From positions 1-50,889 of IMG/VR virus record IMGVR_UViG_3300006128_000017: 50,889 bases of DNA; one strand, 5' to 3'. The position numbers were made by a program, and so were the translations under genes. Of this stretch, positions 9,091 to 22,803 are shown in pieces. The stretch's first letter is position 1; each line of letters begins with the position of its first letter. This DNA is from a virus. Below the pieces are notes generated by a model that was not told where the DNA came from, ran no database searches, and saw nothing but the letters and a program-made list of their open reading frames with translations.

Positions 9091-10740
9091 ATGAATAAGG
9101 ATATCTATTGGCTTAATAAAGACTCGAGAAAGTTTCTCAGTCGTGGTTACCTTCTTGAGGGTGAAACTGCCGAGCAACGTATTAGAGATATTGCCGAGAA
9201 GGCAGAGCATTATCTCAACTTACCGAGCTTTGCTGATAAATTTGAAGACTATATGCATAGGGGGTTCTACTCTCTTGCATCTCCTATTTGGTCTAACTTC
9301 GGTCGTGTAAGAGGCCTTCCTATCTCCTGCTTCGGTTCATATGTCAATGACGATATGGATGATATCCTTTATAAAATGTCAGAGGTCGGTGTTATGTCGA
9401 AGGTCGGTGGCGGTACATCTGGATACTTCGGTGCTATTCGCCCGAGAGGTACGCCAATTTCCTCAGGTGGTGAAGCGACAGGCGTTCATCATCAGCTAAC
9501 TGTATTTGAGTCTCTTACGAACTATATTTCCCAAGGCAATGTCCGCCGCGGTTCATTTGCAGCTTATCTTCCTATTGATCATCCTGATATTGAAGAGTTC
9601 TTAAAGATTAGAGGTGAAGGTGATGATATTCAAAACCTTTCAATTGGTGTCTGTGTCTCAGATAAATGGATGAAGTCAATGATTGACGGTGATAAGGAAA
9701 AGAGAGCTCTTTGGGGACAAGTTATTAAGAAACGCTTTGAATCCGGTTATCCTTATATCTTCTTTACTGATAACGCTAATAAACAGGCTCCTAAGGTCTA
9801 TAAAGACAAGGGCATGAAGATTAATCATAGTAATCTTTGTACAGAGATCATGCTTTCTAACGGTATTGATGAATCGTTTGTTTGTGATTTATCTTCACTT
9901 AATCTCGAGCGCTGGGATGAATGGAAGGAAACAGATGCTGTTGAGACACTCGTTTATTTCCTCGATGCAGTCATGACAGAGTTCATCAATAAGACAGAGG
10001 GTATGAAGTTCATGGAGCATCCTAGAAACTTTGCTATCAATCAACGAGCCCTTGGCGTTGGTGTTCTTGGATGGCACTCACTTCTTCAGCTTAAGATGAT
10101 TGGATTTGAGTCAATGGGTGCTAAGATGCTTAACGGTCAGATCTGGAAGTTTATTCGTGAAAAAGCAGATCATGCTTCAGAGAACTTAGCTAAGGAATAT
10201 GGTGAACCACCTCTTCTCAAGGGATATGGTCGTCGTAATTCCACTACGCTTGCTATCGCACCTACAACATCGAGTTCATTTATTCTTGGTCAGGTATCAC
10301 CGAGTATTGAACCGCTTAATTCTAACTACTTTGTCAAAGATTTAGCTAAAGGTAAGTTTACTTTTAGAAACCCGTACTTAAAGAGGCTTCTTAAAGAGAA
10401 GGGTAAGGATGATGATGAGACCTGGAAGGCAGTCCTTATTAAGGGCGGTTCAGTTCAGCATCTCGACTTCCTTACGCAGGAAGAGAAGGATGTCTTTAAA
10501 ACATTCGGTGAGATTTCACAGAAAGAGATTATTATTCAAGCTGCTACCCGTCAGAAATATATTGACCAGGGTCAGTCGCTGAACGTAATGATCCCACCCA
10601 ATACAAAACCCAAGGATGTCAATGAACTCTTGATTTTTGCTTGGGAGCAGGGTATTAAGAGCTTATACTATCAGCGTTCAGCTAACCCTGCGCAAGAATT
10701 GGCACGTTCTATTCTTACTTGTGCAAGTTGCGAAGCATAA
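9091..10740 (+). CDS. nrdA: Class I ribonucleotide reductase, alpha (catalytic) subunit, lacking the ATP cone
   Basis: 549 residues, against about 750 in E. coli. Active-site residues visible: C80 (PISCFGS) and C265 (FVCDLSS) as the reducing pair, N248-x-C250-x-E252 (SNLCTEI) with the thiyl cysteine C250, paired tyrosines Y526-Y527 (SLYYQRS) for radical transfer, and a C-terminal C544-x-x-C547 for thioredoxin/glutaredoxin re-reduction. The N-terminal ATP-cone domain is absent, so dATP overall-activity inhibition should be missing, which suits a phage needing continuous dNTP supply. It works with NrdB at 7706. The next late-type box overlaps its stop codon. Confidence 0.95.
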   Translation: MNKDIYWLNKDSRKFLSRGYLLEGETAEQRIRDIAEKAEHYLNLPSFADKFEDYMHRGFYSLASPIWSNFGRVRGLPISCFGSYVNDDMDDILYKMSEVGVMSKVGGGTSGYFGAIRPRGTPISSGGEATGVHHQLTVFESLTNYISQGNVRRGSFAAYLPIDHPDIEEFLKIRGEGDDIQNLSIGVCVSDKWMKSMIDGDKEKRALWGQVIKKRFESGYPYIFFTDNANKQAPKVYKDKGMKINHSNLCTEIMLSNGIDESFVCDLSSLNLERWDEWKETDAVETLVYFLDAVMTEFINKTEGMKFMEHPRNFAINQRALGVGVLGWHSLLQLKMIGFESMGAKMLNGQIWKFIREKADHASENLAKEYGEPPLLKGYGRRNSTTLAIAPTTSSSFILGQVSPSIEPLNSNYFVKDLAKGKFTFRNPYLKRLLKEKGKDDDETWKAVLIKGGSVQHLDFLTQEEKDVFKTFGEISQKEIIIQAATRQKYIDQGQSLNVMIPPNTKPKDVNELLIFAWEQGIKSLYYQRSANPAQELARSILTCASCEA

Positions 10741-16277: not shown

Positions 16278-16734
16278 GGGGGTGTACTTGGTACTCGATT
16301 TAATTATTGAAAACTATAGTGCATGCAGTAGACGATTGTATCTACTTTAAAATCAATCAAAAAAATCAAACGCCGAAGATAATACTGACGCGCTCTTAGC
16401 AGAGGCTAGCTACATCTTTAACCACGCAGACGAGTTCTGCATGGAAGAAGAGTATCTTCTCGCTGCATAAAAACAGTATCGGATCCTATTAAAGGTACTG
16501 GGAGCTTAACAATAGGTTAAGGAAGGTCTTACGATTCTAAGAAAACTAAGAGTAAGCGGTCGTAGTAAAGCCGGTTCTTGCTACAGGTAGAGAAAAATAT
16601 AGGCTGGCAACCATTAGCAACCTCTCTCTCCGGCGCCGTATGGCGTTCTTGAAATGCTAGAATATGCTAAAGCATGTAGAGTCGATAGATAGTCAAGATT
16701 AAGGACAGGGGTTCGAATCCCCTCACCTCCACCA
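16278..16734 (+). ncRNA. ssrA: tmRNA, one-piece, with an unusually long tag frame
   Basis: 457 nt. The acceptor stem GGGGGUG (16278-16284) pairs with CACCUCC before the A and encoded CCA at 16732-16734, with the third pair G-U, the alanine identity element. A T-arm with loop TTCGAAT, the conserved GTGCATGC, and CTAAAGCATGTAG near the 3' end fit tmRNA. Pseudoknot 1 is visible (GTAGA/TCTAC with GATTG/CAATC around 16328-16360). The tag frame ends GCT GCA TAA at 16468-16470 and reads open from at least 16366, about 32-34 codons ending EEEYLLAA, a ClpXP-type LAA end. E. coli's tag is about 10-11 residues. The resume codon is uncertain (UCA, AAC or GCC). No smpB gene was recognised in the window. 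Confidence 0.95.
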
Positions 16735-17161: not shown

Positions 17162-17169
17162 TATAAATA
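17162..17169 (+). promoter_or_regulatory. Late-type promoter box (TATAAATA) of hsp20
   Basis: Exact T4 late consensus. The predicted start near 17175 gives a leader of about 63 nt, one of the few long leaders here. The left arm of the inverted repeat begins at its first bases. Confidence 0.6.
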
Positions 17170-17175
17170 GTTATA

Positions 17176-17191
17176 GCTCAGGCGCTCAACC
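17176..17191 (+). repeat. Left arm of inverted repeat flanking hsp20
   Basis: GCTCAGGCGCTCAACC. The 10-mer at 17180-17189 is the exact reverse complement of 17737-17746, and pairing extends with a one-base bulge through GCTC. It lies at the predicted 5' end of the hsp20 mRNA. Confidence 0.6.
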
Positions 17192-17237
17192 GAGGCTAGA
17201 GAGAACATATTAACTCGCTTAACAAAGGAGAACACAT

Positions 17238-17717
17238 ATGACAACACACACATACACACTAGGTCGGGTAATTCCGGCATCAGGGACTGGCTATAGCCGA
17301 CTACCAGCTCTGTTTAATGAAAGTTGGCTAAGTGATGTCTTTAAGGACATCGATAAGGCATTTGATATTCCAAATGCTACATACCCATATAATATCGTAG
17401 CAGATATAGACCCGGAAGGGAACCCTGTTGCATATTATATCGAAGTTGCACTCGCCGGAGTCGGCAGAGACAACATCAAAGTACACGTGAAAGAGGGACA
17501 TCTCTTCATTAGCGTGGAGAAGGAAGACGCAGAACCCGATGAGCATATCGTCTACCACCGTAAAGGAATCAGTAGGAGGAAGGGACAATTGTCCTTCACC
17601 CTGAAAGACAATACGGACGTTAAGTCTATCTCATCAACATACACAGACGGCCTATTACGAGTTAAGGTCCCTGTTGTAAAACCGGAGGTACAAAATATTA
17701 GTATCGAGGTTAAATAG
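17238..17717 (+). CDS. Small heat-shock protein (Hsp20/alpha-crystallin)
   Basis: 159 residues with a good Shine-Dalgarno (AAAGGAGAACACAT before the ATG). The alpha-crystallin domain covers about residues 50-150 (YYIEVALAGVGRDNIKVHVK, LFISVEKED, then LSFTLKDNTDVKSIS and GLLRVKVPV), and the tail contains an I-x-I-type motif (NISIEV) that docks in oligomers. Hsp20 is a holdase chaperone and is frequent in marine T4-like phages, where assembly support is assumed. Late promoter, structured leader and a complementary 3' sequence suggest special mRNA control. Confidence 0.95.
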   Translation: MTTHTYTLGRVIPASGTGYSRLPALFNESWLSDVFKDIDKAFDIPNATYPYNIVADIDPEGNPVAYYIEVALAGVGRDNIKVHVKEGHLFISVEKEDAEPDEHIVYHRKGISRRKGQLSFTLKDNTDVKSISSTYTDGLLRVKVPVVKPEVQNISIEVK

Positions 17718-19758: not shown

Positions 19759-20327
19759 GCACAAAGCAAACAATAACCCGAAAAGGATCGTTCGATGTTA
19801 TGCATCGAGTAATGAACGAGCGTATGAAGTGTTTTCACGTACACGGTCATACATATCTTTATGAACTTACATTCGGTTTTGAAACAATGGAAGAGATTGG
19901 CTATGCAATTGACTTTAAGGAAATTAAGAGAGTAGGGTGTCAGTGGATTGATGATAAGCTCGATCACGGTGCTATTTTAAACTGTCACGATAGAACTCTT
20001 ATTAAAGCTGTCAATGATCTCGGTACAAAACTCTGGATCATGACATTAAATGGACCTGGAAACTACTGTAATCCATCGGTTGAGAATATCGCTAAGGAAG
20101 TGTTTTTAGCAATGGACATCTTATTCAACAAATACCATAATCTCTGGATTGAGAATGTACGGTTATATGAAACACCAAATTGCTTTACTGACTGTAATAG
20201 AGATTCTATCTCACAGGATGAGCGATCAAATTTTTACATCGGTAACAAATATCTAATTGAACAATACAGGGATGAAATGGGTGTTGTTGAATACGATGAT
20301 AGAAAAATTAAATGGAGCGATGCCTGA
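19755..20327 (+). CDS. queD: 6-pyruvoyl-tetrahydropterin synthase / QueD-like protein
   Basis: 190 residues. Zinc ligands fit H17, H30 and H32 (C26-x3-H30-G-H32), with C26 as the catalytic cysteine; AIDFKEIKR, DHGAILN and NPSVENIA (the PTxEN motif) complete the family pattern. QueD makes 6-carboxytetrahydropterin for preQ0 and queuosine; some phages use this route for 7-deazaguanine DNA modification. The other genes of the route (queC, queE, folE) are not in this window. The last codons overlap the 5' end of the tRNA-Ser gene. Confidence 0.85.
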   Translation: MSTKQTITRKGSFDVMHRVMNERMKCFHVHGHTYLYELTFGFETMEEIGYAIDFKEIKRVGCQWIDDKLDHGAILNCHDRTLIKAVNDLGTKLWIMTLNGPGNYCNPSVENIAKEVFLAMDILFNKYHNLWIENVRLYETPNCFTDCNRDSISQDERSNFYIGNKYLIEQYRDEMGVVEYDDRKIKWSDA

Positions 20328-20404
20328 GCGGTTTAAAGGAGAATTCTACTAAAATTCCGAGGTCTAATACACCTCCGTGGGTTCGAATCCCACTCGCTCT
20401 TCCA
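20314..20404 (+). tRNA. tRNA-Ser, anticodon ACU (reads AGU)
   Basis: Class II cloverleaf: acceptor GGAGCGA/TCGCTCT, D-stem CCT/AGG, anticodon stem GAATT/AATTC with loop CTACTAA (U33, anticodon ACU), long variable arm GAGGT/ACCTC, T-arm GTGGG-TTCGAAT-CCCAC, and encoded CCA. The long arm and anticodon make it serine. Oddities: A at position 34 instead of the usual GCU anticodon, a G1-U72 closing pair, U at the discriminator, and 14 bases shared with the end of the queD coding sequence. Confidence 0.9.
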
Positions 20405-20470: not shown

Positions 20471-21424
20471 ATGCAAGCTTATCACTATAAAGACGTTGTT
20501 TTAATTCCGAAATATTCAACACTTGATTCACGGTCTTCAGCTGATACTTCTGTAACGTTAGCAGGTCATACATTTAAAGGACCTGTCATGCCTTCAAATA
20601 TGAAGTGCACTATCAACATTAATATAGCGAGGATGTTATCTAATAACGGTTACTTCTATATTATGCATAGATTTGATACAGACACTGTAGAATTTGTAAG
20701 AATAGCAAATTATGAAGATTGGAAGCTAGTTTCTATCAGTGTAGGTGTTAATGACAGTGATATTACAATCTTAGAGAATTTATATACAGCAAATCACCGT
20801 GTGGACTTTATAACTGTTGATATTGCCCACGGTCATCACAAGAAAATGATGGATATGCTCTCTTATCTACAAAAATTCCGTGATAGAGGAACGAAGATCA
20901 TTGCTGGTAATATCGTAACAAAGGAAGCTGCCTATGACTTAATAAAATGGGGTGCTGATATCGTGAAAGTAGGGATTGGTCAGGGGTATGTTTGTACAAC
21001 GAAGGATAAAACCGGTTTTACGATGCCGATGTTTACAGCTGTTAATACAATGCCTGTTCATATACCTGTAATTGCTGATGGCGGTATCCGGTGTAACGGT
21101 GATATTGCTAAAGCGCTTGTCGCTGGTGCTACCATGGTTATGGCTGGTAGTATGTTCGCTAAGCTTTCCGATAGTCCGTCGGCTACCTTTAAGGATCCAC
21201 ATACTGGCGAGACGCTTAAGGAGTATTACGGCTCGGCAAGCTTCTATAATAAGGGTAACAACAAGAACATTGAAGGGAAGCGTGAACTCATCGAGGCTGA
21301 TCAAATGACATACCTTCAGAAAATGCAAGAAATACAGGAAGATCTGCAGAGTGCCATAAGTTACGCCGGTGGTAATAAATTGTCAGATCTTGTACATACA
21401 AGCTATAAAATACAGGCTGTTTAA
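20471..21424 (+). CDS. IMP dehydrogenase/GMP reductase family enzyme (GMP reductase-like)
   Basis: 317 residues as a single TIM barrel with no CBS insert. The catalytic cysteine is C175 in KVGIGQGYVCTT; IADGGIRCNGDIAKALVAGA and MAGSMFA bind the phosphate, and the EYYGSASFYNKG flap is followed by EGKR. Size and missing CBS domains favour GMP reductase (GMP to IMP, NADPH-dependent) over IMP dehydrogenase. It could redirect host guanine nucleotides for phage DNA or for the QueD-type pathway. Its stop overlaps a late-type box. Confidence 0.85.
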   Translation: MQAYHYKDVVLIPKYSTLDSRSSADTSVTLAGHTFKGPVMPSNMKCTININIARMLSNNGYFYIMHRFDTDTVEFVRIANYEDWKLVSISVGVNDSDITILENLYTANHRVDFITVDIAHGHHKKMMDMLSYLQKFRDRGTKIIAGNIVTKEAAYDLIKWGADIVKVGIGQGYVCTTKDKTGFTMPMFTAVNTMPVHIPVIADGGIRCNGDIAKALVAGATMVMAGSMFAKLSDSPSATFKDPHTGETLKEYYGSASFYNKGNNKNIEGKRELIEADQMTYLQKMQEIQEDLQSAISYAGGNKLSDLVHTSYKIQAV

Positions 21425-21431
21425 ATAAATA
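21424..21431 (+). promoter_or_regulatory. Late-type promoter box in front of a structured RNA
   Basis: AATAAATA. T4 spacing predicts a start at about 21437, one base into the 7-bp closing stem of the RNA element at 21436-21520. Confidence 0.5.
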
Positions 21432-21435
21432 TTTC

Positions 21436-21520
21436 TGCTAGACCCGAGTAGGCAGGGGGTAACTAGTCTTCTTCGACCAGCGGGTTTAATACCCGGTAGC
21501 CAATGAAGATCTATCTAGCA
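21436..21520 (+). ncRNA. Unassigned structured RNA, about 85 nt
   Basis: The ends pair perfectly: TGCTAGA (21436-21442) with TCTAGCA (21514-21520). Inside, CGGGT-TTAAT-ACCCG (21481-21495) forms a hairpin, and GTCTTC (about 21466-21471) can pair with GAAGAT (21505-21510). A second ACCCG at 21442-21446 could compete for CGGGT, so two folds are possible. It does not fold as a tRNA: no T-loop and no CCA. It lies between two late-type boxes, so it may be a small late RNA or a leader. No known family was recognised. Confidence 0.55.
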
Positions 21521-21526
21521 TAAATA
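21519..21526 (+). promoter_or_regulatory. Late-type promoter box (CATAAATA)
   Basis: Ends 7 nt before the ATG at 21533 and overlaps the last bases of the structured RNA. Confidence 0.5.
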
Positions 21527-21532
21527 TTTCAT

Positions 21533-22444
21533 ATGAATTTTAAGGAGCATTTTCATCTTTACGAGGCACTAGATAAAACAAATATCTACACTAGAACTAT
21601 TGCAAAATATTTGTTTGGTGATGAAAAGCGCGTCGATGATATACCCCTACCGCATGGTAAATACCAAGTAGGTGTTGATTTTCAGGTTGATCCGAAAGAT
21701 TTAGATACTTTTACTAAATTATTCCCTATTACACCGCCTAAAGAAGGCGAAGAACTTGATAGTGCTGGTACTAAAGGATCTGGTAACGGTGAAATTGCTC
21801 TATATTGGTTATTTTCAAAGGATCATACAGTTCAAGACATGAGAGGTGGCGATAATCCCGATCTTTTAATTGACAATACAAAGATAGAGGTCAAGGCTTA
21901 TGATTCAAGAAGATTTGGTTTAGGTAGATTCGGTAATCAAGCATCAAATCGCCAGCTACTCTCAGTAGTATTTGGATTAAAGGCACTTTTAAACTCTATT
22001 CGTCCGTCAGATGTTGCTGAACGTCAACCATCTCTTGATGATTTTAATAAACAAGAGGTAATTGACTCTTTCAAGGTATTACAAGATTTTGATAATAACC
22101 AGGAACTCAGAAAAGTAGCATCTGCATATCCGTTAATCGATATGATTTACAAGCAAATTGACAGTGTATTAGCCGGTCTTGGTTTAGTTACAGGAAAATT
22201 TACAGCAGAAGATGGTGCAGCTGCGATGCTTAGAATGTTACTCATCACAAAATTAGATAAGAAGCCTGGTGATAACGGTTATATCATTAATATAGCCTAT
22301 AAAAAGAAATTAAAGAACTTCCAAGGTACTTTCTTTAAGGTATCGATAAAGAATATTAAAAAGCTGAACACCGAAAACATACTAAATGGTGTACAAGCAA
22401 GTGGTGCAGCTCTCAAGATTGATCCTTATCTGCTTTTTAAATGA
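21533..22444 (+). CDS. Putative PD-(D/E)XK nuclease-fold protein
   Basis: 303 residues. E87 in GSGNGEIAL, D110 in GGDNPDLLI and E119-V-K121 in IEVKAYD line up as the acidic and lysine residues of a PD-(D/E)XK active site (D-x8-E-x-K). The C-terminal half is unassigned. It could be an endonuclease for host DNA, repair or resolution; the motif is persuasive but the family is not identified. It starts MNFKEHFHLYEA, and overlaps the next gene by 4 bases. Confidence 0.6.
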   Translation: MNFKEHFHLYEALDKTNIYTRTIAKYLFGDEKRVDDIPLPHGKYQVGVDFQVDPKDLDTFTKLFPITPPKEGEELDSAGTKGSGNGEIALYWLFSKDHTVQDMRGGDNPDLLIDNTKIEVKAYDSRRFGLGRFGNQASNRQLLSVVFGLKALLNSIRPSDVAERQPSLDDFNKQEVIDSFKVLQDFDNNQELRKVASAYPLIDMIYKQIDSVLAGLGLVTGKFTAEDGAAAMLRMLLITKLDKKPGDNGYIINIAYKKKLKNFQGTFFKVSIKNIKKLNTENILNGVQASGAALKIDPYLLFK

Positions 22445-22803
22445 CATTTAAAGAATACATACAGGAGAAAAACAAGCACAGCAAGGCTGAAGCAGGTTAT
22501 GTAGCTCATCCTGTTAATGGCCAGGTATGTAAACATTGCACTATGTGGAGAGAGCCTGATGTTTGTACAGCCGTTGCTGGGACCATAAATCCTAATGGTT
22601 GGTGTAAGTGGTATAAGCGTTCACACCGTGAAAATTTAGCTGAAAAGTCTATTCATGATCCTGTACGCCCGGGCATTTTAAAAAGACAAGTAAAAGGAAA
22701 AATGACTTGCAGTAAAGCACGTGCATTAAAGTCCAAACAAAAAAATAAAGGTAACCATACAGCAAAAGCAGCTCAAAGATTTCTAAATTACCACTGTCAG
22801 TAG
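22441..22803 (+). CDS. HiPIP-like small iron-sulfur protein with basic tail
   Basis: 120 residues. Four cysteines, C30-x2-C33-x8-C42-x12-C55, end in GWCKWY, which fits the high-potential iron-sulfur protein signature (Cys, then G-[YW]-C-x2-[FYW]). After residue 60 the protein is very basic (KRQVKGKMTCSKARALKSKQ), unlike electron-carrier HiPIPs, and has additional Cys residues. A nucleic-acid-binding or structural Fe-S protein is possible. No signal peptide is seen, so it should stay cytoplasmic. Confidence 0.65.
   Translation: MTFKEYIQEKNKHSKAEAGYVAHPVNGQVCKHCTMWREPDVCTAVAGTINPNGWCKWYKRSHRENLAEKSIHDPVRPGILKRQVKGKMTCSKARALKSKQKNKGNHTAKAAQRFLNYHCQ

Follow-up and report, generated by a model that had tools for sequence, protein, structure and literature searches.

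A new family of small structured RNAs was identified in phage genomes, and on the sequence comparisons described below its existence is near certain. The member studied here lies in a 50,889-base IMG/VR virus record, which was analysed over its whole length (hereafter the window) and belongs to a large tailed phage with genes for ribonucleotide reductase, a QueD-like protein, GMP reductase/IMPDH, Hsp20 and a tmRNA, together with tail genes. We propose, with a probability of about 0.6, that the region between the GMP reductase gene (ending at 21424) and an ORF of 303 amino acids (starting at 21533) harbors a gene for a discrete structured RNA of ~84 nt (roughly 21437-21520), which would be made late in infection and act in trans through two invariant loops. 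A first-pass annotation of the same DNA had described an RNA of ~85 nt between two coding genes, with a perfect 7-bp closing stem and an inner hairpin, and had read it as either a new late small RNA or a switch-like element. The structural elements it named are all present (Table 1), and its observation holds more strongly than first stated, but the proposed switch is not supported.

Fold of the RNA and comparative evidence

The RNA forms a three-way junction in which, across the family, a closing stem P1 encloses P2 (NCCC-GAKYAGGCA-GGGN) and a two-part stem P3a/P3b, followed by an internal loop (CCAG / GUAGCCAA) and the hairpin P4 (CGGGU/ACCCG). P1 to P3 vary with compensation among the members; the P2 loop and the internal loop are fixed. 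Not every member has a perfect P1: in L211 it has two end mismatches, and in L243 the stem is weak. No variation was seen in P4 or the internal loop, an invariance to be read with the fact that the last search pattern required most of both, although L084 and L211, found by scans without a P4 requirement, carry P4 too. The loop of P4 comprises either 7 nt or, in half of the members, a small extension with a GNRA-like cap.

Table 1. Features of the structured RNA and its surroundings, with their positions in the window
Feature	Position	Strand	Basis or remark
Late-type promoter box 1, AATAAATA	21424..21431	+	1 base from TATAAATA; predicted start 21437
Structured RNA, whole, three-way junction	21436..21520	+	window-blind covariance model R2, 68.2 bits, E 1.8e-20; covariation
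P1, 5' strand TGCTAGA	21436..21442	+	partner 21514-21520; arm permutation test 1/40320
P2, 5' strand CCC	21443..21445	+	partner 21455-21457; all 4 family P2 pairs vary on both sides, 100% of cells paired
P2 loop GAGTAGGCA	21446..21454	+	near-invariant, GAKYAGGCA in the family; member comparison
P2, 3' strand GGG	21455..21457	+	covariation
P3a, 5' strand TAG	21464..21466	+	partner CTA 21511-21513; P3 arm permutation test 1/40320
P3b, 5' strand TCTTCG	21470..21475	+	partner 21504-21509; permutation test and covariation
Internal loop, 5' side CCAG	21477..21480	+	invariant; invariance partly imposed by the search pattern
P4 hairpin CGGGT-TTAAT-ACCCG	21481..21495	+	stem invariant in 12 members, loop varies
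Internal loop, 3' side GTAGCCAA	21496..21503	+	invariant; final CAA outside the search pattern
P3b, 3' strand TGAAGA	21504..21509	+	permutation test and covariation
P3a, 3' strand CTA	21511..21513	+	permutation test
P1, 3' strand TCTAGCA	21514..21520	+	permutation test
Late-type promoter box 2, CATAAATA, candidate for the next gene	21519..21526	+	kept in G001, L211 and L234; 5-6 nt to ATG
303-aa ORF of no recognised family, 3' of the RNA	21533..22444	+	not kept beside the RNA in relatives

The arms of the stems were tested by permutation, re-pairing the 5' and 3' arms of eight independent representatives in all 40,320 ways. For both P1 and P3 the true pairing was the best (1/40320) and beat all 40,319 re-pairings; for P2, 96 of the 40,320 permutations reached the true pairing. 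Covariation was then scored on the eight members outside the window's own group, where 13 of 21 pairs vary on both sides. The score of 0.361 compares with 0.167 +/- 0.034 in shuffles, none of 500 being as high, and it lies far above the controls with slid partners, in which the signal is destroyed. The compensatory changes whose lack in homologues was to speak against the RNA were thus found. A covariance model (R2) built without the window and its near relatives recovered the RNA as its only match in the record; it scored the window, G001, L211 and L234 at 64-70 bits, compared with 20.5 bits for the best other match, and by this model the window belongs to a family with a P1-P2-P3-P4 architecture, compensatory change and the loops GAKYAGGCA and CCAG/GUAGCCAA.

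Folding energy behaves differently. The 83-nt core is ordinary (z -0.7 vs shuffles), whereas the 108-nt span is stabler than 200 of 200 shuffles (z -2.7), because the two AT-rich boxes (AAATATTT) pair with each other; this box-box pairing was discarded as a part of the fold, as it is not kept in relatives. The evidence beyond chance is comparative and not energetic. A chance structure or an artefact would agree with the ordinary energy of the core, but it is contradicted by the permutation tests, the covariation score and the window-blind model, and is scarcely credible.

Homologues and their genomic contexts

The family comprises 12 distinct sequences from IMG/VR phage contigs, representing eight independent lineages, and these share neither neighbouring genes nor base composition, so that the element itself is what is conserved. 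The nearest relative recovered by protein comparison is the 193-kb record G001 (L006), whose GMP reductase is 84% identical. The RNA is not found beside that gene in G001; a DNA search of the whole record located it elsewhere, at 88% identity and with different genes on both sides, within a tRNA cluster, where a tRNA-Ser directly precedes it and a 57-aa ORF follows. The other members were recovered by scanning the viral collection for three distinct sub-patterns. The RNA lies behind tRNA-Ser in L211, behind tRNA-Cys in L234/L239/L244, and directly before the tmRNA gene in L237/L245 and L248 (tmRNA at 7589-8045 in L237 and 12319-12774 in L248). L246 is situated on a 163-kb contig with UvsX, L243 on a contig with terminase and resolvase, and L247 on one with terminase and portal; L242, L240 and L084 are further members, a head protease gene being recorded for L084. 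Terminase, portal, UvsX and head protease genes thus occur on the contigs that carry the RNA. A tRNA neighbour, or a tmRNA directly after the RNA, was seen in 5 of the 12 members, and half of them (6/12) have no tRNA or tmRNA within the retrieved flanks. The last viral scan, which was based on P4, matched only members with exact P4; the family is therefore probably larger than the members found.

The window encodes a tRNA-Ser (20314-20404) with the predicted anticodon ACT, i.e., with A at the wobble position; the same tRNA occurs in G001, L211 and L234, and it is this tRNA-Ser that directly precedes the structured RNA in G001 and L211. The tmRNA of the window (16278-16734, ~457 nt) was detected by Rfam and missed by ARAGORN.

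Whole-record searches revealed a single intact copy of the RNA per phage. The contig of L211 carries in addition a decayed copy (L264; G032:C1:15382-15463), from which most of the middle is deleted and which lies between two exact TATAAATA boxes. This copy is again followed by an ORF starting MMTFKDYI..., an arrangement which suggests duplication of a box-RNA-box-gene cassette. Movement between genomic contexts and the existence of a decayed copy might be expected of a DNA-level element (e.g., for packaging or recombination, or a mobile element) that merely resembles an RNA structure. However, among the compensatory changes is pairing that tolerates G-U on one strand, the strand of the element is always the same with respect to promoters and mostly so with respect to adjacent genes, and neither common terminal repeats nor target duplications accompany the single intact copy in each genome, which makes a DNA-level element very improbable.

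Searches of databases and other genomes

None of the 4227 families of Rfam 15 matched the window: at the gathering threshold and with E up to 10, nothing or only chance matches far below the cut-off appeared, and the same was true of L084, L242 and L246 at relaxed thresholds. Eight members used as single queries, and in addition the 2.1-kb flank, gave no clear member among 50,697 named phage records. Model R1 had no match in T4, S-PM2, P-SSM2, KVP40, HTVC008M, S-TIM5, Cr30, phiM12, G, RB49 and MW202701, while the positive control was detected. The 793 bacterial genomes sampled from two phyla yielded no member; the only matches there were two of 25 bits, both inside coding genes, and these set the noise level. 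The upstream and downstream genes were used as well: fetched loci with relatives of the GMP reductase lacked the RNA beside that gene, 27 whole records searched with R1 contained it in G001 alone and at another place, and no relatives were found of the downstream protein, a route to the same intergenic region.

Several candidates were not counted as members. The Xanthomonas phage XAJ24 has a 24-nt match, CCAGCGGGTTAGAGACCCGGTAGC, just upstream of a tRNA-Trp (L232:305-327), which lacks P2 and scores 19-24 bits, i.e., at noise level, and is either a reduced relative or due to chance. Phage record MW202701 has only GCTAGACC(T)GAGTAGGCAGG in common with the family. An exact P4 pattern gave four matches in viral contigs, all by chance; a narrow-pattern scan of genome contigs likewise gave chance matches only, as did a loose viral pattern scan among the matches listed. 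The open-access literature searched gave no description of the RNA; one may exist elsewhere, most subscription papers and all preprints lying outside the scope of that search.

Predicted promoters and transcript ends

The RNA is flanked by two late-type boxes, as the first-pass annotation had noted, and each differs by one base from TATAAATA. For a T4-like cyanophage, NATAAATA has been reported as the late promoter (PMC2984593). The second box does overlap the 3' end of the RNA. The upstream box had been thought to start transcription exactly at the first base of the closing stem; with the T4 spacing applied, the predicted start is 21437, where the conserved GCTAG begins, at the second position of the 7-bp stem. 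In T4, transcription starts 5 nt after the octamer, and this distance was carried over to the boxes analysed here. The spacing of 5 nt between the box and the first G of GCTAG occurs in the window, G001, L211 and L234, the octamer being ACTAAATA or ATTAAATA in G001 and L234, and the decayed copy retains TATAAATA-ATTTT-GTTAG, an exact box at 5 nt from GTTAG. L237, a distant member, has a sigma-70 promoter close to consensus (TTGACT-18-TATAAT, 11 of 12 matches), with 8 nt separating it from the start of P1. It is thus strongly suggested by the sequences that the 5' end of the RNA lies at about the first base of P1 and is set by a promoter of its own, T4-type late in the window and sigma-70 in L237; the approximate agreement of two promoter types on this 5' end favours a discrete RNA. 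The compensatory changes, together with a box-to-stem spacing kept in the four nearest relatives, support the earlier suggestion of a new late small RNA. In L240, L246 and L243 only a few nt separate the start of the RNA from the stop codon before it, and there it could be part of an operon mRNA.

Allowing one mismatch, TATAAATA occurs 178 times in the window and 180 times in shuffles, i.e., without excess. In the window's phage group, HATAAATA is placed exactly 5 nt before ATG in 9 of 58 boxes, compared with 0.95 expected (P 4e-7; some of the genes are homologous between contigs, and the cases are not fully independent), and such boxes are therefore real promoter candidates. This distance is 5 nt at positions 10736, 14078, 24483 and 28842 of the window and 6 nt at 21519 and 34081; further cases occur in L076, L006, L211 and L239. 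If the T4 distance from box to start holds, late mRNAs behind the 5-nt boxes would be leaderless and start at AUG. Genes behind late boxes frequently begin with M-T/N-F-K-E/T-Y/F (21533-22444 and 22441-22803 in the window; downstream ORFs in L074, L211 and L234), a start which resembles the capsid-targeting start of T4 internal head proteins, and proteins with this start may possibly be packaged in the head. The Hsp20 gene of the window is preceded (17162-17240) by a box that matches TATAAATA exactly and by a conserved ~62-nt leader, GCTCAGGYGCTCAA..CCGAG.CTA...CTCGCTTAAYAAAGGAG, with 86-89% identity in G001, G032 and G037; this is possibly a regulatory leader or an RNA thermometer.

The position of box 2 bears on the switch-like element of the first-pass annotation, i.e., on a cis-acting mRNA element, either a riboswitch or a structured leader, that would control the next gene. 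Such a role agrees with the location of the RNA ~2-30 nt from the next start codon, in the same direction, in the window, L246, L240 and L084. However, within the window's group a separate late box precedes the next gene and would start that gene's transcript at or next to the ATG and after the RNA, so that the RNA is not needed as a leader of that gene. The downstream genes differ by lineage and are unrelated (a nuclease-like ORF, an NYN domain, a resolvase, tmRNA and short ORFs of no known family), contrary to the conserved class of regulated genes that marks riboswitches. The competing match on which the switch was based, ACCCG (21442-21446) with CGGGT (21481-21485), is present in the window, where it needs a P2 strand ACCC, but P2 reads TTCC in L246 and L243 and CAAG in L240, and the alternative pairing is consequently not a trait of the family. 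Unrelated downstream genes and the lost alternative pairing together make a riboswitch unlikely, although binding of a ligand is conceivable.

A catalytic RNA of a new class, self-cleaving or otherwise, which might, e.g., separate tRNA/tmRNA or mRNA units in a long transcript, appears comparably unlikely: the RNA is small, with a junction in which invariant unpaired loops are combined with freely varying stems, it is present once per genome and sits between transcript units and beside tRNAs, but no Rfam ribozyme matches it, no cleavage site can be indicated, and candidate promoters in two lineages already place the 5' end at P1, so that no 5' cleavage is needed. The predicted start exactly at P1 and the tight packing between genes would also suit a passive role as an end protector or as a landmark for processing, in which a stable structure at the 5' or 3' end keeps nucleases away from late transcripts. 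Protection, however, requires a stable stem and not invariant loops, the core is no stabler than shuffles, and only one such element exists per genome, so that a passive protector is distinctly improbable.

Proposed function and significance

A discrete RNA acting in trans is the reading we prefer, since the element has no fixed gene neighbour, has promoter signals of its own in two lineages, keeps two unpaired loops invariant and in 5 of the 12 members has a tRNA or tmRNA nearby. The RNA would be made from its own promoter with the 5' end at P1, and its 3' end would arise by trimming back to P1; in L246 and L240 it might instead form at the T-run that follows P1. The invariant loops would form one compact surface, possibly by a contact between GGC in the P2 loop and GCC in the internal loop, both of which are invariant in the members. 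Late in infection the RNA would then act in trans, its binding partner being a component shared by many hosts and most probably belonging to the translation or RNA-processing machinery, a target proposed because of the tRNA and tmRNA genes beside it. More tentatively, the family might represent a new class of trans-acting phage RNAs, spread by horizontal transfer among T4-like and unrelated tailed phages, in which the two loops would serve as a binding or catalytic site directed at conserved translation or RNA machinery of the host; if true, it would be a general-purpose late RNA effector of phages.

Judged by the sequence searches, the family is new, since it has no match in Rfam or among the known phage RNAs with which it was compared. 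Small structured phage RNAs without a known role are a kind already known, and newness is claimed for the family, not for the mechanism. It is nevertheless unusual for a structured RNA without an Rfam counterpart to be common to unrelated phages. The family is a candidate for a small RNA that is widespread among phages. Its fold is defined, a covariance model is available and the invariant nucleotides can be mutated, so that the role of phage small RNAs made beside tRNAs becomes directly testable.

Comparison with known RNAs

The RNA resembles several known systems in part, and the known phage RNAs tested, as well as tmRNA, gave no match to it. The phi29-type pRNA is also phage-encoded and forms a three-way junction. 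In comparison with it, the new RNA is shorter, has other loops, is not located beside packaging genes in the window and has no Rfam match. GOLLD, which is carried by some phages near tRNA genes, and ROOL are several hundred nt long and included in Rfam. Both are described as large ornate RNAs (PMC12286853). Like them, the new RNA is structured and without a known function, but it differs in having no Rfam match.

A likeness to tRNA is evident in the size, the 7-bp closing stem, the P2 loop (AGTAGGCA) resembling a D loop, and the tRNA neighbourhood in relatives. The new RNA, however, lacks an anticodon arm, a CCA and a T arm before the 3' strand, the position of the latter before the 3' strand of P1 being occupied by P3. 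The first-pass annotation was right in stating that it is not a tRNA: ARAGORN was negative at the locus, as was the Rfam tRNA model. A tRNA-like or T-loop reading of the inner hairpin was also rejected, because other members have a GNRA-capped extension in place of the 7-nt loop and the resemblance to a T loop is thus not conserved.

A parallel may be sought in T4, whose RNA C and RNA D (species 1 and 2 stable RNAs; annotated in NC_000866) are small RNAs in the tRNA cluster with unknown roles (PMC3014915). They share with the new RNA the small size and the location in a tRNA cluster of a T4-type phage, but they are 139 and 119 nt long and, unlike the new RNA, have neither the GAKYAGGCA nor the CCAG/GUAGCCAA loop; neither R1 nor R2 matched in the T4 tRNA region, nor did R1 in the whole T4 genome. 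According to a review of post-transcriptional control in T4, no small trans-acting RNA of T4 had been functionally characterised, and T4-related genomes might suggest candidates (PMC3014915).
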